Source: Dehalobacterium formicoaceticum
Lineage (GTDB): Bacteria > Bacillota > Dehalobacteriia > Dehalobacteriales > Dehalobacteriaceae
Length of the DNA stretch: 64,000 nt
Assembly: GCF_002224645.1 (NCBI RefSeq)
Contig: NZ_CP022121.1
Location: forward strand, 2,672,501 to 2,736,500
Direction: 5' to 3'
Shown here: one piece after another, positions 49,877 through 56,190 of the stretch
Layout of the letters: the number at the start of each line of letters is the position of its first letter
Position numbering within the stretch: the stretch's first letter is position 1
Notes under the pieces: generated by a model
The model's database searches: none
The model's input: the letters and a program-made list of their open reading frames with translations, nothing else
What the model was told of the DNA's origin: nothing
Made by a program: the position numbers and the translations under genes

Positions 49877-49902
49877 AAATAAGTAACTTAATAAAAAATG
49901 TT

Positions 49903-50022
49903 TTCTAGGGTTCCGCAACGTTTTGTTGGTCTGGTCCGAGAGAAAACTCACAGCTTAACTGTGTCACGGAAGGATAAAAGCCTGGGAGAAACTGTATAAC
50001 AGTTGTCTTCTGGGTTTTTTTT
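49903..50022 (+). promoter_or_regulatory. Guanidine-I (ykkC) riboswitch with terminator platform
   Basis: The conserved ykkC blocks are present in order: CTAGGGTTCCG (49905-), GGTCTGGTCCGAGAGAAAAC (~49928-), ACGG-AGGATAAAAG and CCTGGGAGA. The 3' part (49979-50022) forms a long hairpin around AACTGT-ATA-ACAGTT and ends in eight T. This is the usual off-state terminator. Guanidinium binding should allow read-through into the two SMR genes. Confidence 0.93.
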
Positions 50023-50055: not shown

Positions 50056-50397
50056 ATGAATGCAAACTGGATACAAGTATTTGCTGCCGCTTTTTTTGAA
50101 GTTCTATGGGTGATTGGTTTCAAACACGCAGATGATTTTTGGACTTGGACGGTCACCGCAATTGCCCTCTTTCTTAGTTTCTATTTATTGATTAAGGTCG
50201 GACGGAAACTTCCTGTAGGCACTGCCTATTCTGTTTTTGTAGGCCTAGGCACAGCAGGAACTGTTATATCTGAGATTTTATTCTTTGGAGAACCATTTAA
50301 ATTAGCTAAAATACTTTTGATTTTACTTTTATTAATAGGTGTAATCGGCTTGAAATTGATAACTGAAGAAAATGAACAGGAAGGAGCTGAGTGTTAA
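50056..50397 (+). CDS. SMR family transporter, guanidinium exporter subunit 1
   Basis: A 113-residue four-helix SMR protein with the membrane Glu in [16 protein letters not shown] and the [13 protein letters not shown] segment in the third helix. The guanidine-I riboswitch upstream and the paired second subunit indicate a heterodimeric Gdx/YkkCD-type guanidinium/H+ exporter. The RBS ACGGAGG precedes ATG. Confidence 0.9.
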
Positions 50398-50711
50398 TGG
50401 CATGGGCTTCTTTGATATTAGCAGGGATATTCGAAATGCTTGGTGTGACTTCGATATATAAATTTAATAAGGTTCGTAACTGGCAATCCCTGATTCTTTT
50501 ATTAGTCACATTTGGAGCAAGTTTATTATTTCTTTCTTTTGCAATAAAAATATTACCCATGGGAACTGCTTATGCAATTTGGACCGGAATTGGCGCATCT
50601 GGCGGAGCATTAATTGGAATGATCTTCTATGGTGACTCAAAGGATTGGAGGAGGCTTGTATTAATTGCAATGGTGATAGGAGCAGCAATAGGATTAAAGC
50701 TCGTCTCATAG
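50397..50711 (+). CDS. SMR family transporter, guanidinium exporter subunit 2
   Basis: A 104-residue four-helix SMR protein, with Glu in AGIFEMLGVTSIYKFN and PMGTAYAIWTGIGASGG in helix 3. ATG at 50397 overlaps the previous stop by one base and follows AAGGAGC. It is the second half of a paired SMR exporter under the same riboswitch. Paired SMR subunits usually insert in opposite orientation. Confidence 0.9.
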   Translation: MAWASLILAGIFEMLGVTSIYKFNKVRNWQSLILLLVTFGASLLFLSFAIKILPMGTAYAIWTGIGASGGALIGMIFYGDSKDWRRLVLIAMVIGAAIGLKLVS

Positions 50712-50835: not shown

Positions 50836-51327
50836 TTATAATAAGCCCCTATCTCTAATAATCCATTTGATATTTTTTTGAATGCATAAATCCTCAATAT
50901 TTTTCCGAAGTTTTATATTATCTCTATAAAATCGCGGGTAAATTCTTACTTTCATTTGATCATCTATAGAGATAATTATTACCTGGTTAGGAATTAATGC
51001 ATCTAAAATTCCTGCAAATTCAAAACCGTAAATACCAGGTTTATAAATCTGCCGATCAAATTTTATTTCTCTAATTGTATTCCAAGGAATTTTTTTATTA
51101 TTTATTTCAATTGCATCATCGGTTAACATAATCCTTTTTGAACCAGTAATAACATGCAAAACACGTATTAATAATATAATAAAAAAAATAAAAGCTAAAA
51201 ATCCAGCTAATCCATCATCTATACCACCGGATATTATAATGATGATTGCAAATAAAACTGCGAACTTAACTATTGATTTGGTGTTTGCAGACCAAAAAAC
51301 CTTTAAATATTCATCCACATTGCCCAT
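50836..51327 (-). CDS. Hypothetical membrane protein with PH-like domain
   Basis: I do not recognise a named family. The 163-residue protein has two hydrophobic segments (~residues 19-36 and 41-60) and a soluble C-terminal part with ITGSKRIMLTDDAIEINNKKIPWNTIREIKF. That resembles the bacterial PH-like domain found in YcxB/PhoPQ-type membrane proteins. Its role is unknown. The gene is AT-rich compared with its neighbours and may have been acquired. Confidence 0.6.
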   Translation of the reverse strand: MGNVDEYLKVFWSANTKSIVKFAVLFAIIIIISGGIDDGLAGFLAFIFFIILLIRVLHVITGSKRIMLTDDAIEINNKKIPWNTIREIKFDRQIYKPGIYGFEFAGILDALIPNQVIIISIDDQMKVRIYPRFYRDNIKLRKNIEDLCIQKNIKWIIRDRGLL

Positions 51328-51420
51328 TATTATTTTCTCCTACTATCATAAAAAGCATTACGAGGTCTTCTTTTTCACCAATATGCTGCAATAGTTATTT
51401 CCTTTTTTACCTACCCTTCT

Positions 51421-52071
51421 CTAAAAAATTAATTCATATTGCATAATTAAAAAAGATGAAACCATAATCGCTGCCTCATTAATGGCTTCTGTATCCAGAT
51501 AATGATTAGCACTTAAATCAAATAGGATATTAGCAGAACCCTTGATTTCATCATCACCCAGCCACAACTTAATCGTTAAGGGGAATCTGGGAAAAAGGTG
51601 CATTTTAGCACAAACGTCGGCTCCTTCCTCCAGGGAAGCATCCAGTATCAGACATGCCGCCTTTATTTGCTCTACCGGTTCCTGTAAGAGATTTTTTACA
51701 AGAGGATCAATACATTTACTCAAAATAGCCGAGTAATTGACGTTTCCATGTTCTAACTCGCGGTATGTGATTAATTTATTTTTAATGGGAGCAGCATCAG
51801 CTCGGGAAAGATAGTGGAGAATAAGCCATCTCCAATTCCAGGTAGGCATATGCTTTGAACCGCTAAAAACAATATTACCCTCCGGATATTTTATATCAAA
51901 GACTTGACCAAGGCTTTTTAACCGTATCATAGATTGATTTGGATCAAAGATTGCTCCACTATTTCCCGTCATCTTCAGCGGATCTTCCGCCGCAAAGCAC
52001 TTTATGGCATATTCGAACGCTGGTTTATAATTATAAGTGTCTTTATCCTCGGCTATCATATAAGGAAACAT
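51421..52071 (-). CDS. DUF3786 family protein
   Basis: A ~216-residue soluble protein. The C-terminal half has FPLTIKLWLGDDEIKGSANILFDLSANHYLDTE, which fits DUF3786; this family has no proven function. ATG at 52071 follows AGGGGGAGGG, a strong RBS. A start at 52122 would overlap the HTH gene by 26 bp. It is the last gene of a five-gene same-strand run with HTH, DUF4125, DUF4037 and TPR genes. Confidence 0.7.
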   Translation of the reverse strand: MFPYMIAEDKDTYNYKPAFEYAIKCFAAEDPLKMTGNSGAIFDPNQSMIRLKSLGQVFDIKYPEGNIVFSGSKHMPTWNWRWLILHYLSRADAAPIKNKLITYRELEHGNVNYSAILSKCIDPLVKNLLQEPVEQIKAACLILDASLEEGADVCAKMHLFPRFPLTIKLWLGDDEIKGSANILFDLSANHYLDTEAINEAAIMVSSFLIMQYELIF

Positions 52072-52096
52072 TATTTCCCTCCCCCTAACAAATATA

Positions 52097-52309
52097 TTAC
52101 CAGGGAATTTTATCATCGTCATCTCCTCTTAATATGGGGAGAATCATACTATAGAGAGGTTCTTCTACATCTTTTAGCTGAAGGTCATCCACACGTAAAA
52201 TTTCGGACCCGTTAATTTTTAACCGCTGGGCTAACTCTGCTGCCGTATAGCCCCGGTTTTTCCTTAATTCTTTCACGGTTTTTTTCCTGATTCCAAATCC
52301 AAATATCAA
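52097..52309 (-). CDS. Small helix-turn-helix protein
   Basis: A ~70-residue protein with an XRE-like HTH (KTVKELRKNRGYTAAELAQRLKING) and an acidic C-terminal end (GDDDDKIPW). TTG at 52309 is 7 nt after TGGAGG; an ATG at 52327 has no RBS. Its stop is 26 bp before the DUF3786 start. It could regulate the surrounding cluster; this is inference. Confidence 0.65.
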   Translation of the reverse strand: MIFGFGIRKKTVKELRKNRGYTAAELAQRLKINGSEILRVDDLQLKDVEEPLYSMILPILRGDDDDKIPW

Positions 52310-52364
52310 ATTGTGATCCTCCATCATTATTAAACAGGATTAGAAAGGAGCCTTCGAAAGCACC

Positions 52365-53018
52365 TTATTTTTTCATCGCCGAAAGCTTCACATTTTCATT
52401 TGCTTCTTCCAGGGAGCTAAACCCATACCGTTTAACGGTATTTTCCAGAAGACGTTTGCTGCCGTTGATCCCCTCTGCTTTTTCCTTAAGAATATGTTGA
52501 TAATACAGGTTCAGCGTTTTTTGGGAATAGGTTCCCAACTCCCCTCTCAGATAAGTTTCAATGGAAGTGGCATAGGGTGTGTCTTCACTGGTATAAACAG
52601 GGCGTCCTCTTTGGCAAAGATATGGATAGATTGTCATTAATTCTTCTTCCCAAAATAAATGGATCGTAACAATATCATCAATTAACCGGATCATTTCCTG
52701 GTTTAAAGGCGGCAGTTGATCCTGAAATTGGGCAAATTCCAGGGGAGCTGTAGATTGCATCATTCGAGCATATTTTTCCGTTACCAGGTTTCGGCCATCT
52801 TGAAAAGCTATTTTCAAATCCTCCAGATAACTTGCCAAAGCCTCCTCCGGCCAAGTCACCCACTGACTAGAACGCATGATTTCAAAGGTTTTAGGATCAT
52901 CCTGACAGGACGCCCGCCCTCCCTGATTGGAAACATTTTGAAACATAGTCCATTCCATTGCTACAATTTGCTTTATTAATTCTTTGTTTTGCTTTATTAA
53001 TTCTTTGTTCATGTTCAT
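52365..53018 (-). CDS. DUF4125 family protein
   Basis: The 217-residue protein is soluble and mostly helical. Family-type segments are EWTMFQNVSNQGGRASCQDDPKTFEIMRSSQ and EKYARMMQSTAPLEF. No function is known. A 21-bp tandem duplication at the start repeats the heptapeptide NKELIKQ. The RBS GGGAGG lies 5 nt before ATG. It is 39 bp after the DUF4037 stop, so the two are co-transcribed. There is no HEPN-type R-x4-6-H motif. Confidence 0.8.
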   Translation of the reverse strand: MNMNKELIKQNKELIKQIVAMEWTMFQNVSNQGGRASCQDDPKTFEIMRSSQWVTWPEEALASYLEDLKIAFQDGRNLVTEKYARMMQSTAPLEFAQFQDQLPPLNQEMIRLIDDIVTIHLFWEEELMTIYPYLCQRGRPVYTSEDTPYATSIETYLRGELGTYSQKTLNLYYQHILKEKAEGINGSKRLLENTVKRYGFSSLEEANENVKLSAMKK

Positions 53019-53057
53019 TTAAACCTCCCTTTCCTCACTCTTGAGGTAGCATTACCG

Positions 53058-54005
53058 TTATTCGACCCAAACGTTCATCGCCTGAATCCTGGGGTCCATG
53101 ATATGCCTTTGCACCAAAGGCCCATGATCCAGCAAAAAGTCACTGTCCGAGTCCGTTAACCCCTGGAGTTTTAATTCTTCAATGATTTGCCGACAAATCT
53201 CTTCAATAAACATGGCTTTCTTTTCGTAGACTTCCTGTCCCGTTGATACCTGGTGGGTTCTGACCAAATCAAAATAAAGCTGATACATTTCCTCCCCTAA
53301 AATTGGCAATCTTTTTAAAGCTTTGTGCATCCATTTATAAAAGGGCTTGTACTCTTTATTCAGGAGAAAGACCATGGAAATTCCCCCATTGATAAATTCT
53401 GTTTCGCAGCATTGAGCAGCAACCAGTTCCCCGCGTTTTACTGTGCGCATCAGGTTATATTGACCGGATTGAGCCACGGTCATGCAACGGGCCGCAATTT
53501 TTTTGAGCCGGATGTCCTCCGGATAAAAAGCTTTCAATTGTTGGCGGAAAGAGCTGAATTCACCGGAAGGATCCGTAAAGACCCGGCCATTGGTGGCCGT
53601 AGCCAAATAAGTCTCCGGAATCAGACGCCATTCCAACAAGTCCGCAGGAACATGGTCAAATCCGATAAATTGCTTATAAAATTGACCGATTTCAAATACT
53701 CCGGTACGTCCTTCTCCCCACACACTGACATTACGGCAAGGAACTCCGGCAAACTCTCCGGGCAGCTGTTCATATTCTTTCTGAAGTGCTACACCGATAG
53801 CCTGATAAGTTTCTTGATTTAACCAAAGACAAAAAGATGGGCCCCAATCATGATCTCGAGAGATTTCATCATCAAAGGAAAAACATTCTGAACCGGATCC
53901 GACCAGACCGGCTGCGATTTGTTCTTGATATTGAGGGAATTTTTCTTTGATCATGGGAATTCCGAATTCATTAAAATAGCGTTCTGATAAATCCAGACCC
54001 TGCAT
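53058..54005 (-). CDS. DUF4037 protein with nucleotidyltransferase fold
   Basis: The N-terminal half has the Pol-beta-type motif: VGSGSE (hG-S) and, 12 residues on, DHDWG, i.e. the D-x-D metal ligands at about residues 51 and 53 (counting from 54005). So it is probably an active nucleotidyltransferase of unknown substrate. ATG at 54005 (MQGLDLSERYF) follows GAGG by 8 nt and fits the family start. An ATG at 54044 overlaps the TPR stop by 4 bp and is the alternative. Confidence 0.8.
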   Translation of the reverse strand: MQGLDLSERYFNEFGIPMIKEKFPQYQEQIAAGLVGSGSECFSFDDEISRDHDWGPSFCLWLNQETYQAIGVALQKEYEQLPGEFAGVPCRNVSVWGEGRTGVFEIGQFYKQFIGFDHVPADLLEWRLIPETYLATATNGRVFTDPSGEFSSFRQQLKAFYPEDIRLKKIAARCMTVAQSGQYNLMRTVKRGELVAAQCCETEFINGGISMVFLLNKEYKPFYKWMHKALKRLPILGEEMYQLYFDLVRTHQVSTGQEVYEKKAMFIEEICRQIIEELKLQGLTDSDSDFLLDHGPLVQRHIMDPRIQAMNVWVE

Positions 54006-54040
54006 GTTTCTTGCCTCACTTTCTTCCCTTTGATATGGAA

Positions 54041-54988
54041 TCATGCTTTTACCTGGTGTCCCAGTTTTTGTTTCAATCGAGCGACGGTGTACATACTTTG
54101 CTCATATTCAGGATGATTTTTACCGTATATTTTACCACAGGTGTGAGCAACTTCACTATGGTACTGGATTGCTTTTTGATCCTGATCCAGCTTTTCATAG
54201 AGCAATCCCAGGTTTGAAGCTGTGGAAAGATATTTTTGGTGCTCAGGACCAAAAATTCCGGATAAAATATCCAGAGCTTCAAGAAACAGCGGTTCTGCTT
54301 CTGGATATTGACCGATCACCAGATAATGAGAGCCCAGGTTATTTAAACCGGAGGCGTAATATGGATGATTTTTACCCACTGTTTCATCATAGATTTCTAA
54401 AGCCTCCTTTAAAAGAGCAGTTGTTTCATCATTTTTTCCCAGGGCCCGATAAGCACTGGCTAAATTATTCAGACTGGTGGCATAGGTAATTCTATTTTTC
54501 TCCAGCTTGCGAATGATCTCCAATGCTTCTTCATGAAGTTCCACTGCTTTTTCAAATACTTCCATGTCTTGATAGAGTAGTCCCAGATTGTTTAAACCGG
54601 TGGCATAGAGAAAATGCTCTTTGCCCACCGTATTTTCATAAATCTTTAATGCCCTAAAGAACATTTCTTCAGCCTTGGGATAAATTTTCATGAGACGGTA
54701 CAAACCGGCAAAATTATTGATAGCTGTGGCATAATCAGGATGATCTTCTCCTAAAATTTCTGATATAATTTTTGTGGCTTCCAGAAATGCAGTTTCTGAT
54801 TTTTCAAATTCATGCATTTCCCGATAATAGCCTCCCAGGTCATTAAGTGCGGAGGCATAGTCCATTTGTCCCCCATTTTTCATTTTTAATAGTTCCACAA
54901 CCTCTTTCAGCAGAGGTTCCACCTCTCTTAAGCGCCCTTCTCGATAAAGTTGATCAATTTGAGCATTTAAAGAATTAATATCTGCCAT
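54041..54988 (-). CDS. Kinesin-light-chain-type TPR protein
   Basis: A 315-residue protein made almost entirely of 42-residue tetratricopeptide repeats. The N-N-L-G-x-x-Y core occurs at least six times (LNDLGGYY, INNFAGLY, LNNLGLLY, LNNLASAY, LNNLGSHY, ASNLGLLY). It is a protein-protein interaction scaffold. It is the first gene of the DUF4037-DUF4125 operon and overlaps the alternative DUF4037 start by 4 bp. Confidence 0.85.
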   Translation of the reverse strand: MADINSLNAQIDQLYREGRLREVEPLLKEVVELLKMKNGGQMDYASALNDLGGYYREMHEFEKSETAFLEATKIISEILGEDHPDYATAINNFAGLYRLMKIYPKAEEMFFRALKIYENTVGKEHFLYATGLNNLGLLYQDMEVFEKAVELHEEALEIIRKLEKNRITYATSLNNLASAYRALGKNDETTALLKEALEIYDETVGKNHPYYASGLNNLGSHYLVIGQYPEAEPLFLEALDILSGIFGPEHQKYLSTASNLGLLYEKLDQDQKAIQYHSEVAHTCGKIYGKNHPEYEQSMYTVARLKQKLGHQVKA

Positions 54989-55239: not shown

Positions 55240-56190
55240 TTAATTTTGATATTTTTTTAAACCCAGGCAGGCTGTACCCACGGCATTATCCGTCGAATAT
55301 TTGGGATCTGCAAAATAGAGCATAGCCCCCACAGCGGGATGTTCCAGCCGGTAGATTAATCTTTGACGCAGGTAAGCGTTGGCAGCCACGCCGCCGACCA
55401 TGAGAATTTCTTTTAATCCTGTGCCCTGAATTACTTGGCGTAAAACCTTTTCTAAGGTAGTTGCGATACAATGCTCCACAGATCTGGCCACAGCCTCTGG
55501 AGGAAAGCCTTGATCTAATAACTTGCGGGCTCCGGTTTCGGGACCTGAAAAGGAAAATTCAGTTCCCTTCACACCGGTTGTTAAATAAGGGATTTCACCC
55601 CGATATGTATGCGCCAATTTTTCCAAATGAGCACCGGCAGGAAAAGGCAGACCCAAAGAGACCCCTATACGATCCACAAATTGTCCGGCATGCAAATCCG
55701 TGGTGGCGCCCAGAATTTCAATGGAAAAATGATCTTGCCCTTTTATAACCTTTAATACCTCTGAAGTACCTCCTGAAAGATGGACAGCAATAAATTCATT
55801 GGAGCAGGGACCATCGGCGGACCAAATACCGGCCATAAGATGCCCTTCCTGATGACTGGTCATATAAAAGGGAATTTTTTTGATCTGAGCAATCATTTGG
55901 CCAAATCCATGGCACACTGTAAAAACCGGCATATAAGATTTTTCTATCGGCCGGGGCTTGGTGCTGACGCAAACGCTTTGCAGCTGGTCCATATCAAATG
56001 CCTGGGCCAGCTCATTAAATAAAAGCGGCAGATTCTGCACATGCTGAAAAACAGCTTCCGATTGCATGAGGCCTCTGTCTCCCGGTTTTATCCTTAATAC
56101 TTTGCGCAGATCCTTGATTAATTGGCCTTGATCATTCATTACGGCAATAGAGGTAGTATAGCAGCTGGTATCTATCCCTAAATGCATCAT
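55240..56190 (-). CDS. TsaD/Kae1 paralogue (O-sialoglycoprotein endopeptidase-like)
   Basis: An ASKHA-fold protein related to TsaD. It keeps the metal motif SHQEGH (~residues 112-117), a VHLSGGTSEV nucleotide loop and GGVAANAYLR. It is 316 aa, shorter than TsaD (~340), and diverges in between. The true TsaD makes threonylcarbamoyladenosine in tRNA; a second TsaD-like gene beside nusB is found in some Clostridia, with unknown role. It overlaps nusB by 4 bp (ATGA). Confidence 0.85.
   Translation of the reverse strand: MMHLGIDTSCYTTSIAVMNDQGQLIKDLRKVLRIKPGDRGLMQSEAVFQHVQNLPLLFNELAQAFDMDQLQSVCVSTKPRPIEKSYMPVFTVCHGFGQMIAQIKKIPFYMTSHQEGHLMAGIWSADGPCSNEFIAVHLSGGTSEVLKVIKGQDHFSIEILGATTDLHAGQFVDRIGVSLGLPFPAGAHLEKLAHTYRGEIPYLTTGVKGTEFSFSGPETGARKLLDQGFPPEAVARSVEHCIATTLEKVLRQVIQGTGLKEILMVGGVAANAYLRQRLIYRLEHPAVGAMLYFADPKYSTDNAVGTACLGLKKYQN

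Follow-up and report, generated by a model that had tools for sequence, protein, structure and literature searches.

A TPR–DUF4037–DUF4125 gene module linked to glycyl radical enzymes, probably a control or protection system in oxygen-avoiding bacteria

Three neighboring genes of Dehalobacterium formicoaceticum, lying on the minus strand of the 64,000-nt stretch of DNA analyzed here (the window; module at 54988-52365) and encoding a TPR protein, a DUF4037 nucleotidyltransferase and a DUF4125 protein, form, as far as gene order and sequence comparison can tell, one conserved unit. The new result is the link of this module to glycyl radical enzymes (GREs), which is well supported and had gone unseen in an earlier, sequence-only reading of the same DNA. 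In oxygen-avoiding bacteria, it probably controls or protects the GREs, as a system of a new kind. To the full reading, in which the module assists GREs by transferring a nucleotide to a protein, we assign a probability of roughly 0.5: a dedicated GRE accessory is likely, and, if it is one, control through nucleotidylation of a protein is something short of an even bet, the nucleotidyl-transfer chemistry being what we infer for it. GREs underlie the formation of trimethylamine from choline, the degradation of toluene and alkanes, pyruvate cleavage and indoleacetate decarboxylation, and the active enzymes are irreversibly cut by oxygen. Reversible quenching of the radical has been ascribed to PFL alone, and a special deactivase for PFL is disputed (PMC11194802). 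A widespread, three-part, GRE-linked module would offer concrete candidates for this missing shut-off layer, and its link places two families of "unknown function" in a pathway; no paper connecting a DUF4037/DUF4125 module to GREs was found in the open-access literature searched.

The genes and neighboring features in the window are as follows.
54041..54988, minus strand: TPR protein, first gene of the module (315 aa; kinesin-light-chain-type repeats; Pfam TPR_12, 4e-71)
53058..54044, minus strand: DUF4037 putative nucleotidyltransferase (328 aa; Pfam DUF4037, 2e-35; likely true start at 54005, MQGLDLSE)
52365..53018, minus strand: DUF4125 protein, predicted all-helical (217 aa; Pfam DUF4125, E=1e-79)
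52097..52327, minus strand: HTH-like protein, local run only (76 aa; no Pfam score above cut-off, the best being HTH_19 at 4e-4)
51421..52122, minus strand: DUF3786 protein, local run only (233 aa; Pfam DUF3786, 6e-43; likely start at 52071)
50836..51327, minus strand: 163-aa membrane protein of no assigned family (membrane helices at the N-terminus; no match in Pfam, NCBIfam or PADLOC), 93 bp past the DUF3786 gene
55240..56190: TsaD-like paralogue, between the gene run and nusB
49894-49990: Guanidine-I riboswitch

The same-strand run described in the sequence-only reading lies where that reading had put it, with every gene from TPR to the 163-aa protein on the minus strand. As to its tight spacing, the 163-aa gene stands apart by the 93 bp given above, and the proposed ATGA overlap of the TPR and DUF4037 genes hinges on the DUF4037 start chosen: an internal ATG at 54005 has a better Shine-Dalgarno sequence (GTGAGG) and agrees with the start of homologues (MKGLELS), which would leave a gap of ~36 bp in place of the overlap. 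Similarly, the ATG at 52071, preceded by a strong Shine-Dalgarno sequence (GGGGGAGGG), is the more likely start of the DUF3786 gene, with ~25 bp remaining to the HTH gene. The run had further been placed between a guanidine operon and nusB; the riboswitch marks the guanidine operon as real, but the TsaD-like paralogue intervenes before nusB. Finally, the cluster of four or five genes proposed there shrinks to a module of three. Across ~90 module loci, the HTH, DUF3786 and 163-aa genes have no homologues (0 in each case); membership of the HTH and DUF3786 genes is therefore not supported, and the 163-aa gene is probably unrelated to the module as well.

The order TPR-DUF4037-DUF4125 was seen again in 80 related loci, in most of which the TPR homologue lies 5′ of DUF4037 or is fused to it. 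A single ORF carries all three parts in 25 loci, TPR and DUF4037 are fused in 13, one locus combines a DUF4037–DUF4125 fusion with a separate TPR gene, and three separate genes are present in 19; fusions hence cover every adjacent combination. Since order and fusions are found in dozens of genomes, the arrangement exceeds chance. In the Bacillota sample, DUF4037 is adjacent to DUF4125 in seven of the eight genomes with DUF4125. Together with the fusions, this means that the two families co-occur strongly rather than rarely, and it supports the earlier view of an enzyme, a helical partner and a TPR scaffold as a functional unit.

The catalytic motif read from the DUF4037 sequence, GS...DHD, is present (G51-S52 and D64-H65-D66, with D158 also conserved) and conserved over 75 homologues (GS in 74/74, D64 in 75/75, D66 in 73/75, i.e. 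97%); the active site is intact and kanamycin-nucleotidyltransferase-like. The AlphaFold model of a natural DUF4037–DUF4125 fusion (pLDDT 93.6, pTM 0.73, the interface of the two parts being poorly fixed) points to a kanamycin/ANT(4′)-type fold for DUF4037, with a Pol-beta nucleotidyltransferase core and a KNTase_C-like helical domain; its best PDB matches in Foldseek were 6un8, 3c18 and 1kny (probability 1.00, E ~5e-3). DUF4125, called helical from its sequence, is confidently modeled as all-helical (pLDDT 95.8, pTM 0.90), and its model had no match among PDB folds (best E 3.1). Near-invariant among 105 homologues are E22, C38, Q39, R49, D67, E81-K82-Y83, Y156, E160 and N185. A sequence search of the PDB with the DUF4125 and DUF4037 profiles gave no meaningful match.

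DUF4125 is the part of the module most tightly linked to GREs. Combining three class- or phylum-level samples, a PFL-family GRE was present in 25 of 25 genomes with DUF4125 as compared to 267 of 634 without it. This held for Bacillota (8/8 vs 218/390, P=0.010), for the Dehalococcoidia-like class of genome G405 (12/12 vs 33/175, P=1.1e-8) and for Coriobacteriia (5/5 vs 16/69, hypergeometric P=0.0013), some samples including near relatives (genomes G702 and G712 are nearly identical). In a further set of DUF4125-positive genomes, partly overlapping the others, 50 of 50 had a GRE. DUF4125 is thus confined to GRE-bearing genomes in every sample tested. As GREs are common in gut anaerobes, part of this signal reflects lifestyle. 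PFOR_II served as the control for anaerobiosis; at E<1e-3 it was weak and matched 179 of 187 genomes, and only strong, hand-picked matches (E ~1e-15 or better) were therefore retained. Among strong-PFOR genomes of the G405 class, GREs were found in 11/11 with DUF4125 and in 33/86 others (P=8e-5), a control that removes the lifestyle effect only in part.

The module also lies beside a GRE or an activase more often than chance. Cluster detection placed a GRE or activase near 6 of 50 loci with 0.87 expected (P=1.9e-4), a more sensitive profile search added further such loci, and in ~20 loci a GRE or activase lies within ~10 kb; GRE and activase are the commonest specific enzyme families around the module. 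In Coriobacteriia, all five positives have a same-strand GRE within ~11 kb. Operon-like runs read Fur-GRE-TPR-DUF4037-DUF4125 (locus L132), GRE-activase-TPR/DUF4037-DUF4125 (L079 and L152) and GRE-MFS-TPR-DUF4037-DUF4125 (L150), and two microcompartment operons (L151, L153) end in TPR-DUF4037-DUF4125-MerR. The activase and DUF4125 genes overlap by 4 bp in L032 and are 22 bp apart in L041, and such immediate adjacency to a GRE or activase was seen again in several phyla. On the DUF4125 tree, the label "near GRE" takes 13 changes for 19 "near" rows, which argues that the association arose repeatedly. We rejected a pairing with one GRE class, as the neighboring GREs are diverse: the one in L096 is a true CutC, and others are PFL2-like or fall under every equivalog cut-off. 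In the limonene degrader Syntrophobacteraceae LiM6, which uses a GRE-dependent pathway, lrcL (DUF4125) and lrcM (DUF4037) are expressed as the first genes of an operon after the GRE chaperone gene bssE; they were reported merely as domains of unknown function, with no role or wider pattern offered (PMC12583861).

The co-occurrence with GREs might instead stem from a common lifestyle and from catabolic islands, the module serving general anaerobic or oxygen-stress physiology with no direct functional link to these enzymes. GREs occur mainly in anaerobes, the majority of modules are not beside a GRE (most in Lachnospiraceae, and the window's own), and solo DUF4125 genes are also found in ilv and arg neighborhoods (ilvD/ilvB, argG), as such a role would allow. 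We nevertheless consider it unlikely, if worth keeping in mind, given that the association holds in strong-PFOR genomes, that direct adjacency recurs across phyla and that GRE and activase top the specific families nearby. Rather unlikely, too, is a maturation or repair chaperone that helps the activase to open the GRE or restores the damaged enzyme, DUF4037 modifying or recycling a factor with no switch of activity. TPR proteins are often co-chaperones, and in L032 DUF4125 comes after a BssE-like AAA ATPase and the activase, just as lrcLM comes after bssE in the limonene degrader (PMC12583861). Such a chaperone, however, would not need an intact nucleotidyltransferase site, and TPR, DUF4037 and DUF4125 all lack a C-terminal glycyl radical domain, which also argues against a spare part of the YfiD type.

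Given its fold, the DUF4037 substrate could be a small molecule, and the enzyme an antibiotic or metabolite nucleotidyltransferase adenylylating a small hydroxyl compound. Its top fold matches, ANT(4′), kanamycin nucleotidyltransferase and LinB, share the two-domain fold and the GS...DxD site; yet identity to these resistance enzymes is ~12%, DUF4037 is constantly coupled or fused to TPR and DUF4125, and the module sits in GRE operons, its form being absent from the ordinary plasmids searched, which together make this reading very improbable. Least credible is the defense or toxin-antitoxin part of the sequence-only reading, which had suggested a stress, defense or toxin-antitoxin system. As in MNT-HEPN (MntA-HepT) pairs, a nucleotidyltransferase adjoins an all-helical partner, the distribution is patchy, and an Abi_2 gene is inserted in a Fusobacterium copy of the module. 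However, DUF4037 is not a minimal nucleotidyltransferase, the TPR part is extra, and all three parts can be fused in single ORFs. Moreover, DUF4125 matched no HEPN fold and has neither a conserved His among its 23 conserved positions (105 sequences) nor an Rx4-6H motif. PADLOC assigned the run to no system beyond generic TPR/HTH models, and DUF4125 was absent from phage records, its one plasmid match being a 2.1-Mb "plasmid" record.

If the module assists GREs through nucleotidyl transfer, its clients would include choline lyase and PFL-like, arylsuccinate-synthase-like and other GREs. DUF4125 may be the GRE-directed effector, because some GRE operons and some genomes with GREs carry it without the other two parts; TPR would bring in the client enzyme, and DUF4037 would put a nucleotide on a protein, most likely the GRE, the activase or DUF4125 itself. 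The transfer could turn off or shield the oxygen-sensitive radical enzyme when radical chemistry is unwanted. GlnD and GlnE, Pol-beta-type nucleotidyltransferases with a helical domain, offer a working analogy only for such control of metabolic enzymes by reversible nucleotidylation, the homology seen here being limited to the superfamily fold. Known GRE accessories (the YfiD spare part, BssE-type AAA ATPases, activating enzymes and the disputed PFL deactivase) are likewise encoded together with GREs or dedicated to them, and we know of none with a nucleotidyltransferase, TPR or DUF4125 part. A more specific and quite improbable version casts DUF4125 as a dedicated, broad GRE deactivase whose Cys38 and acidic residues would quench the radical and leave the enzyme undamaged, with nucleotidylation by DUF4037 switching DUF4125 and TPR recruiting different GREs; if true, it would provide a GRE shut-off switch reaching beyond PFL. 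The genome of the window's organism encodes five GREs, each adjoined by an activase, and the module would there act in trans on these five pairs, which are encoded elsewhere.

Six genes, all on the minus strand, make up the region:

54988-54041, minus strand: TPR protein (Pfam, high score)
54044-53058, minus strand: DUF4037 protein (Pfam, high score)
53018-52365, minus strand: DUF4125 protein (Pfam, high score)
minus strand: HTH-like gene, 76 aa (Pfam score below cut-off)
minus strand: DUF3786 protein (Pfam, high score)
minus strand: membrane protein, 163 aa

Apart from generic TPR and HTH assignments, PADLOC and NCBIfam models named none of the six. Judging by Shine-Dalgarno sequences and homologue starts, DUF4037 and DUF3786 more likely begin at 54005 and 52071, respectively. 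The run had been placed between a guanidine operon and nusB; a Guanidine-I riboswitch (49894-49990, 85 bits) indeed lies on one flank and nusB on the other, the latter flank also carrying a TsaD-like paralogue (55240-56190) that adjoins nusB and scores 140 bits, far below the TsaD equivalog cut-off of 296. Downstream of the riboswitch, two overlapping small-multidrug-resistance-type genes (50056-50711) probably encode a paired guanidinium exporter.

DUF4125 occurred in eight of 398 genomes of a Bacillota sample, seven of which had a strong DUF4037 match adjoining it, and the pairing noticed in the window thus recurs. A GTDB genome scan yielded 80 loci (Bacillota, Chloroflexota, Desulfovibrio and relatives, Coriobacteriia, others; a Fusobacterium record was found in addition). 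Gene calls being approximate in GC-rich loci, TPR, DUF4037 and DUF4125 share one ORF in 25 loci, TPR is fused to DUF4037 in 13, and DUF4037 to DUF4125 in one locus with a separate TPR gene and in four further loci where TPR was not seen (contig edge or divergence). Three separate genes were found in 19 loci, DUF4037 and DUF4125 with no TPR seen in two, and DUF4125 with no DUF4037 within the fetched stretch in 16. Because every adjacent combination occurs as a fusion, there is strong gene-fusion evidence that the three proteins form one functional complex, in line with the enzyme, partner and scaffold envisaged in the sequence-only reading. The HTH and DUF3786 genes, which had been counted as members, drop out, as neither they nor the 163-aa gene have homologues in other module loci. 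DUF4125 was absent from all 40 genomes related to the window's and is therefore patchily distributed.

DUF4037 had been credited with an intact GS...DHD motif, and across 75 sequences GS and D64 are invariant, with D66 conserved in 97% and D158 in 93%; the protein is therefore very likely an active enzyme. The model of a naturally occurring DUF4037-DUF4125 fusion reached a pLDDT of 93.6 and a pTM of 0.73 without fixing the interface between the two, and its best PDB matches were ANT(4'), kanamycin nucleotidyltransferase, a related structural-genomics entry and LinB. DUF4125 alone gave a confident model (pLDDT 95.8, pTM 0.90) that had no fold match at all in the PDB. Its near-invariant residues in 105 sequences include E22, F26, C38, Q39, R49, D67, N77, E81-K82-Y83, Y156, E160, S165 and N185. 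Cysteine is missing from the C38 column only in the paralogue pair of two nearly identical Coriobacteriia, where one member of each pair has a Cys two positions off.

The suspected defence or toxin-antitoxin role was not borne out: as an MNT-HEPN system the module fails on partner fold, motif and mobile context, and plasmid and phage collections gave no sign of DUF4125 spread. The sole DUF4125 match in the plasmid collection, NZ_CP084075.1, is a 2.1-Mb record labelled plasmid that is more likely a chromosome; in this Fusobacterium vincentii locus (L118:12096-15603), a gene of the abortive infection family Abi_2 sits between a TPR-DUF4037 fusion and DUF4125. DUF4037 alone has a few distant relatives on plasmids and one match in a phage record (MT835476.1, 84572-85501; 38% identical to the window's protein), a 114-kb 'Bacteriophage sp.' entry that comes from human faeces, lacks annotation and may be a bacterial contig.

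Among the specific enzymes encoded near the module, neighbour clustering showed glycyl radical enzymes (GREs) and their radical-SAM activating enzymes (activases) to be the commonest, and in a set of 50 DUF4125-positive genomes every one encodes a PFL-family GRE. GREs were present in 8/8 DUF4125-positive versus 218/390 negative genomes of the Bacillota sample (Fisher P=0.010), in 12/12 versus 33/175 of a Dehalococcoidia-like class (P=1.1e-8) and in 5/5 versus 16/69 Coriobacteriia, the class that includes Eggerthella sinensis (P=0.0013, hypergeometric count), in samples that contain related species and with GRE presence being lifestyle-linked. A lifestyle correlation is the main sceptical rival; with the Dehalococcoidia-like class limited to genomes whose PFOR match was strong, the figures were 11/11 versus 33/86 (P=8e-5). 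A GRE lay within the examined flanks of 6/50 loci, a count lowered by short MAG contigs, where the density of GREs would predict 0.87 (P=1.9e-4), and a profile search recovered further nearby GREs missed by clustering, e.g. at L079. In each of the five DUF4125-positive Coriobacteriia, a GRE is encoded on the same strand of the module's contig, at most about 11 kb away. On a DUF4125 tree, built quickly and with some long branches, 19 rows carry the 'near GRE' label, which requires 13 changes and thus recurs rather than marking one clade. The window's own genome encodes five GREs, each adjoined by an activase and none near the module; two of these pairs lie close together (1928000-1947500) beside corrinoid and methyltransferase-like genes (named by eye).

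Several loci form operon-like runs: Fur-GRE-TPR-DUF4037-DUF4125 (L132), GRE-activase-TPR/DUF4037-DUF4125 (L079/L152), GRE-MFS-TPR-DUF4037-DUF4125 (L150) and GRE-MFS-DUF4125-TPR-DUF4125 (L148/L149). In the last (L148:9664-11754, L149:6477-8567), two diverged DUF4125 paralogues, one without the conserved Cys, flank the TPR gene downstream of the GRE and MFS transporter genes. Microcompartment operons with GRE and activase end in TPR-DUF4037-DUF4125-MerR (L151, L153), and L096 contains a bona fide choline lyase CutC. In two loci an activase gene immediately precedes DUF4125, overlapping it by 4 bp in L032 and ending 22 bp before it in L041. Independent evidence comes from a limonene degrader, Syntrophobacteraceae LiM6, in which DUF4125 (LrcL) and DUF4037 (LrcM) are expressed; their genes are the first of an operon placed after bssE, which encodes a GRE chaperone (PMC12583861).

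The statistics above show the link to GREs; the module's target and the direction of control are inferred. Since DUF4125 stands solo in the GRE/activase operons L032 and L041, and mostly solo in GRE-bearing genomes of the Dehalococcoidia-like class, it is the part tied most tightly to GREs, and would be the GRE-directed part, with TPR as recruiter and DUF4037 as the nucleotidyltransferase controlling the system. Most likely, DUF4037 would nucleotidylate DUF4125, the GRE or the activase, and the oxygen-sensitive radical enzyme would thereby be stopped or protected. The nearest mechanistic rival is a role in chaperoning or repair. We found no described system with this make-up in the open-access literature searched. 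Elsewhere, a solo DUF4125 lies between apparent ilvD and ilvB/ilvN genes (L133:7393-11937), and other solo copies (L135-L137) adjoin argG and a radical-SAM gene, all named by eye.
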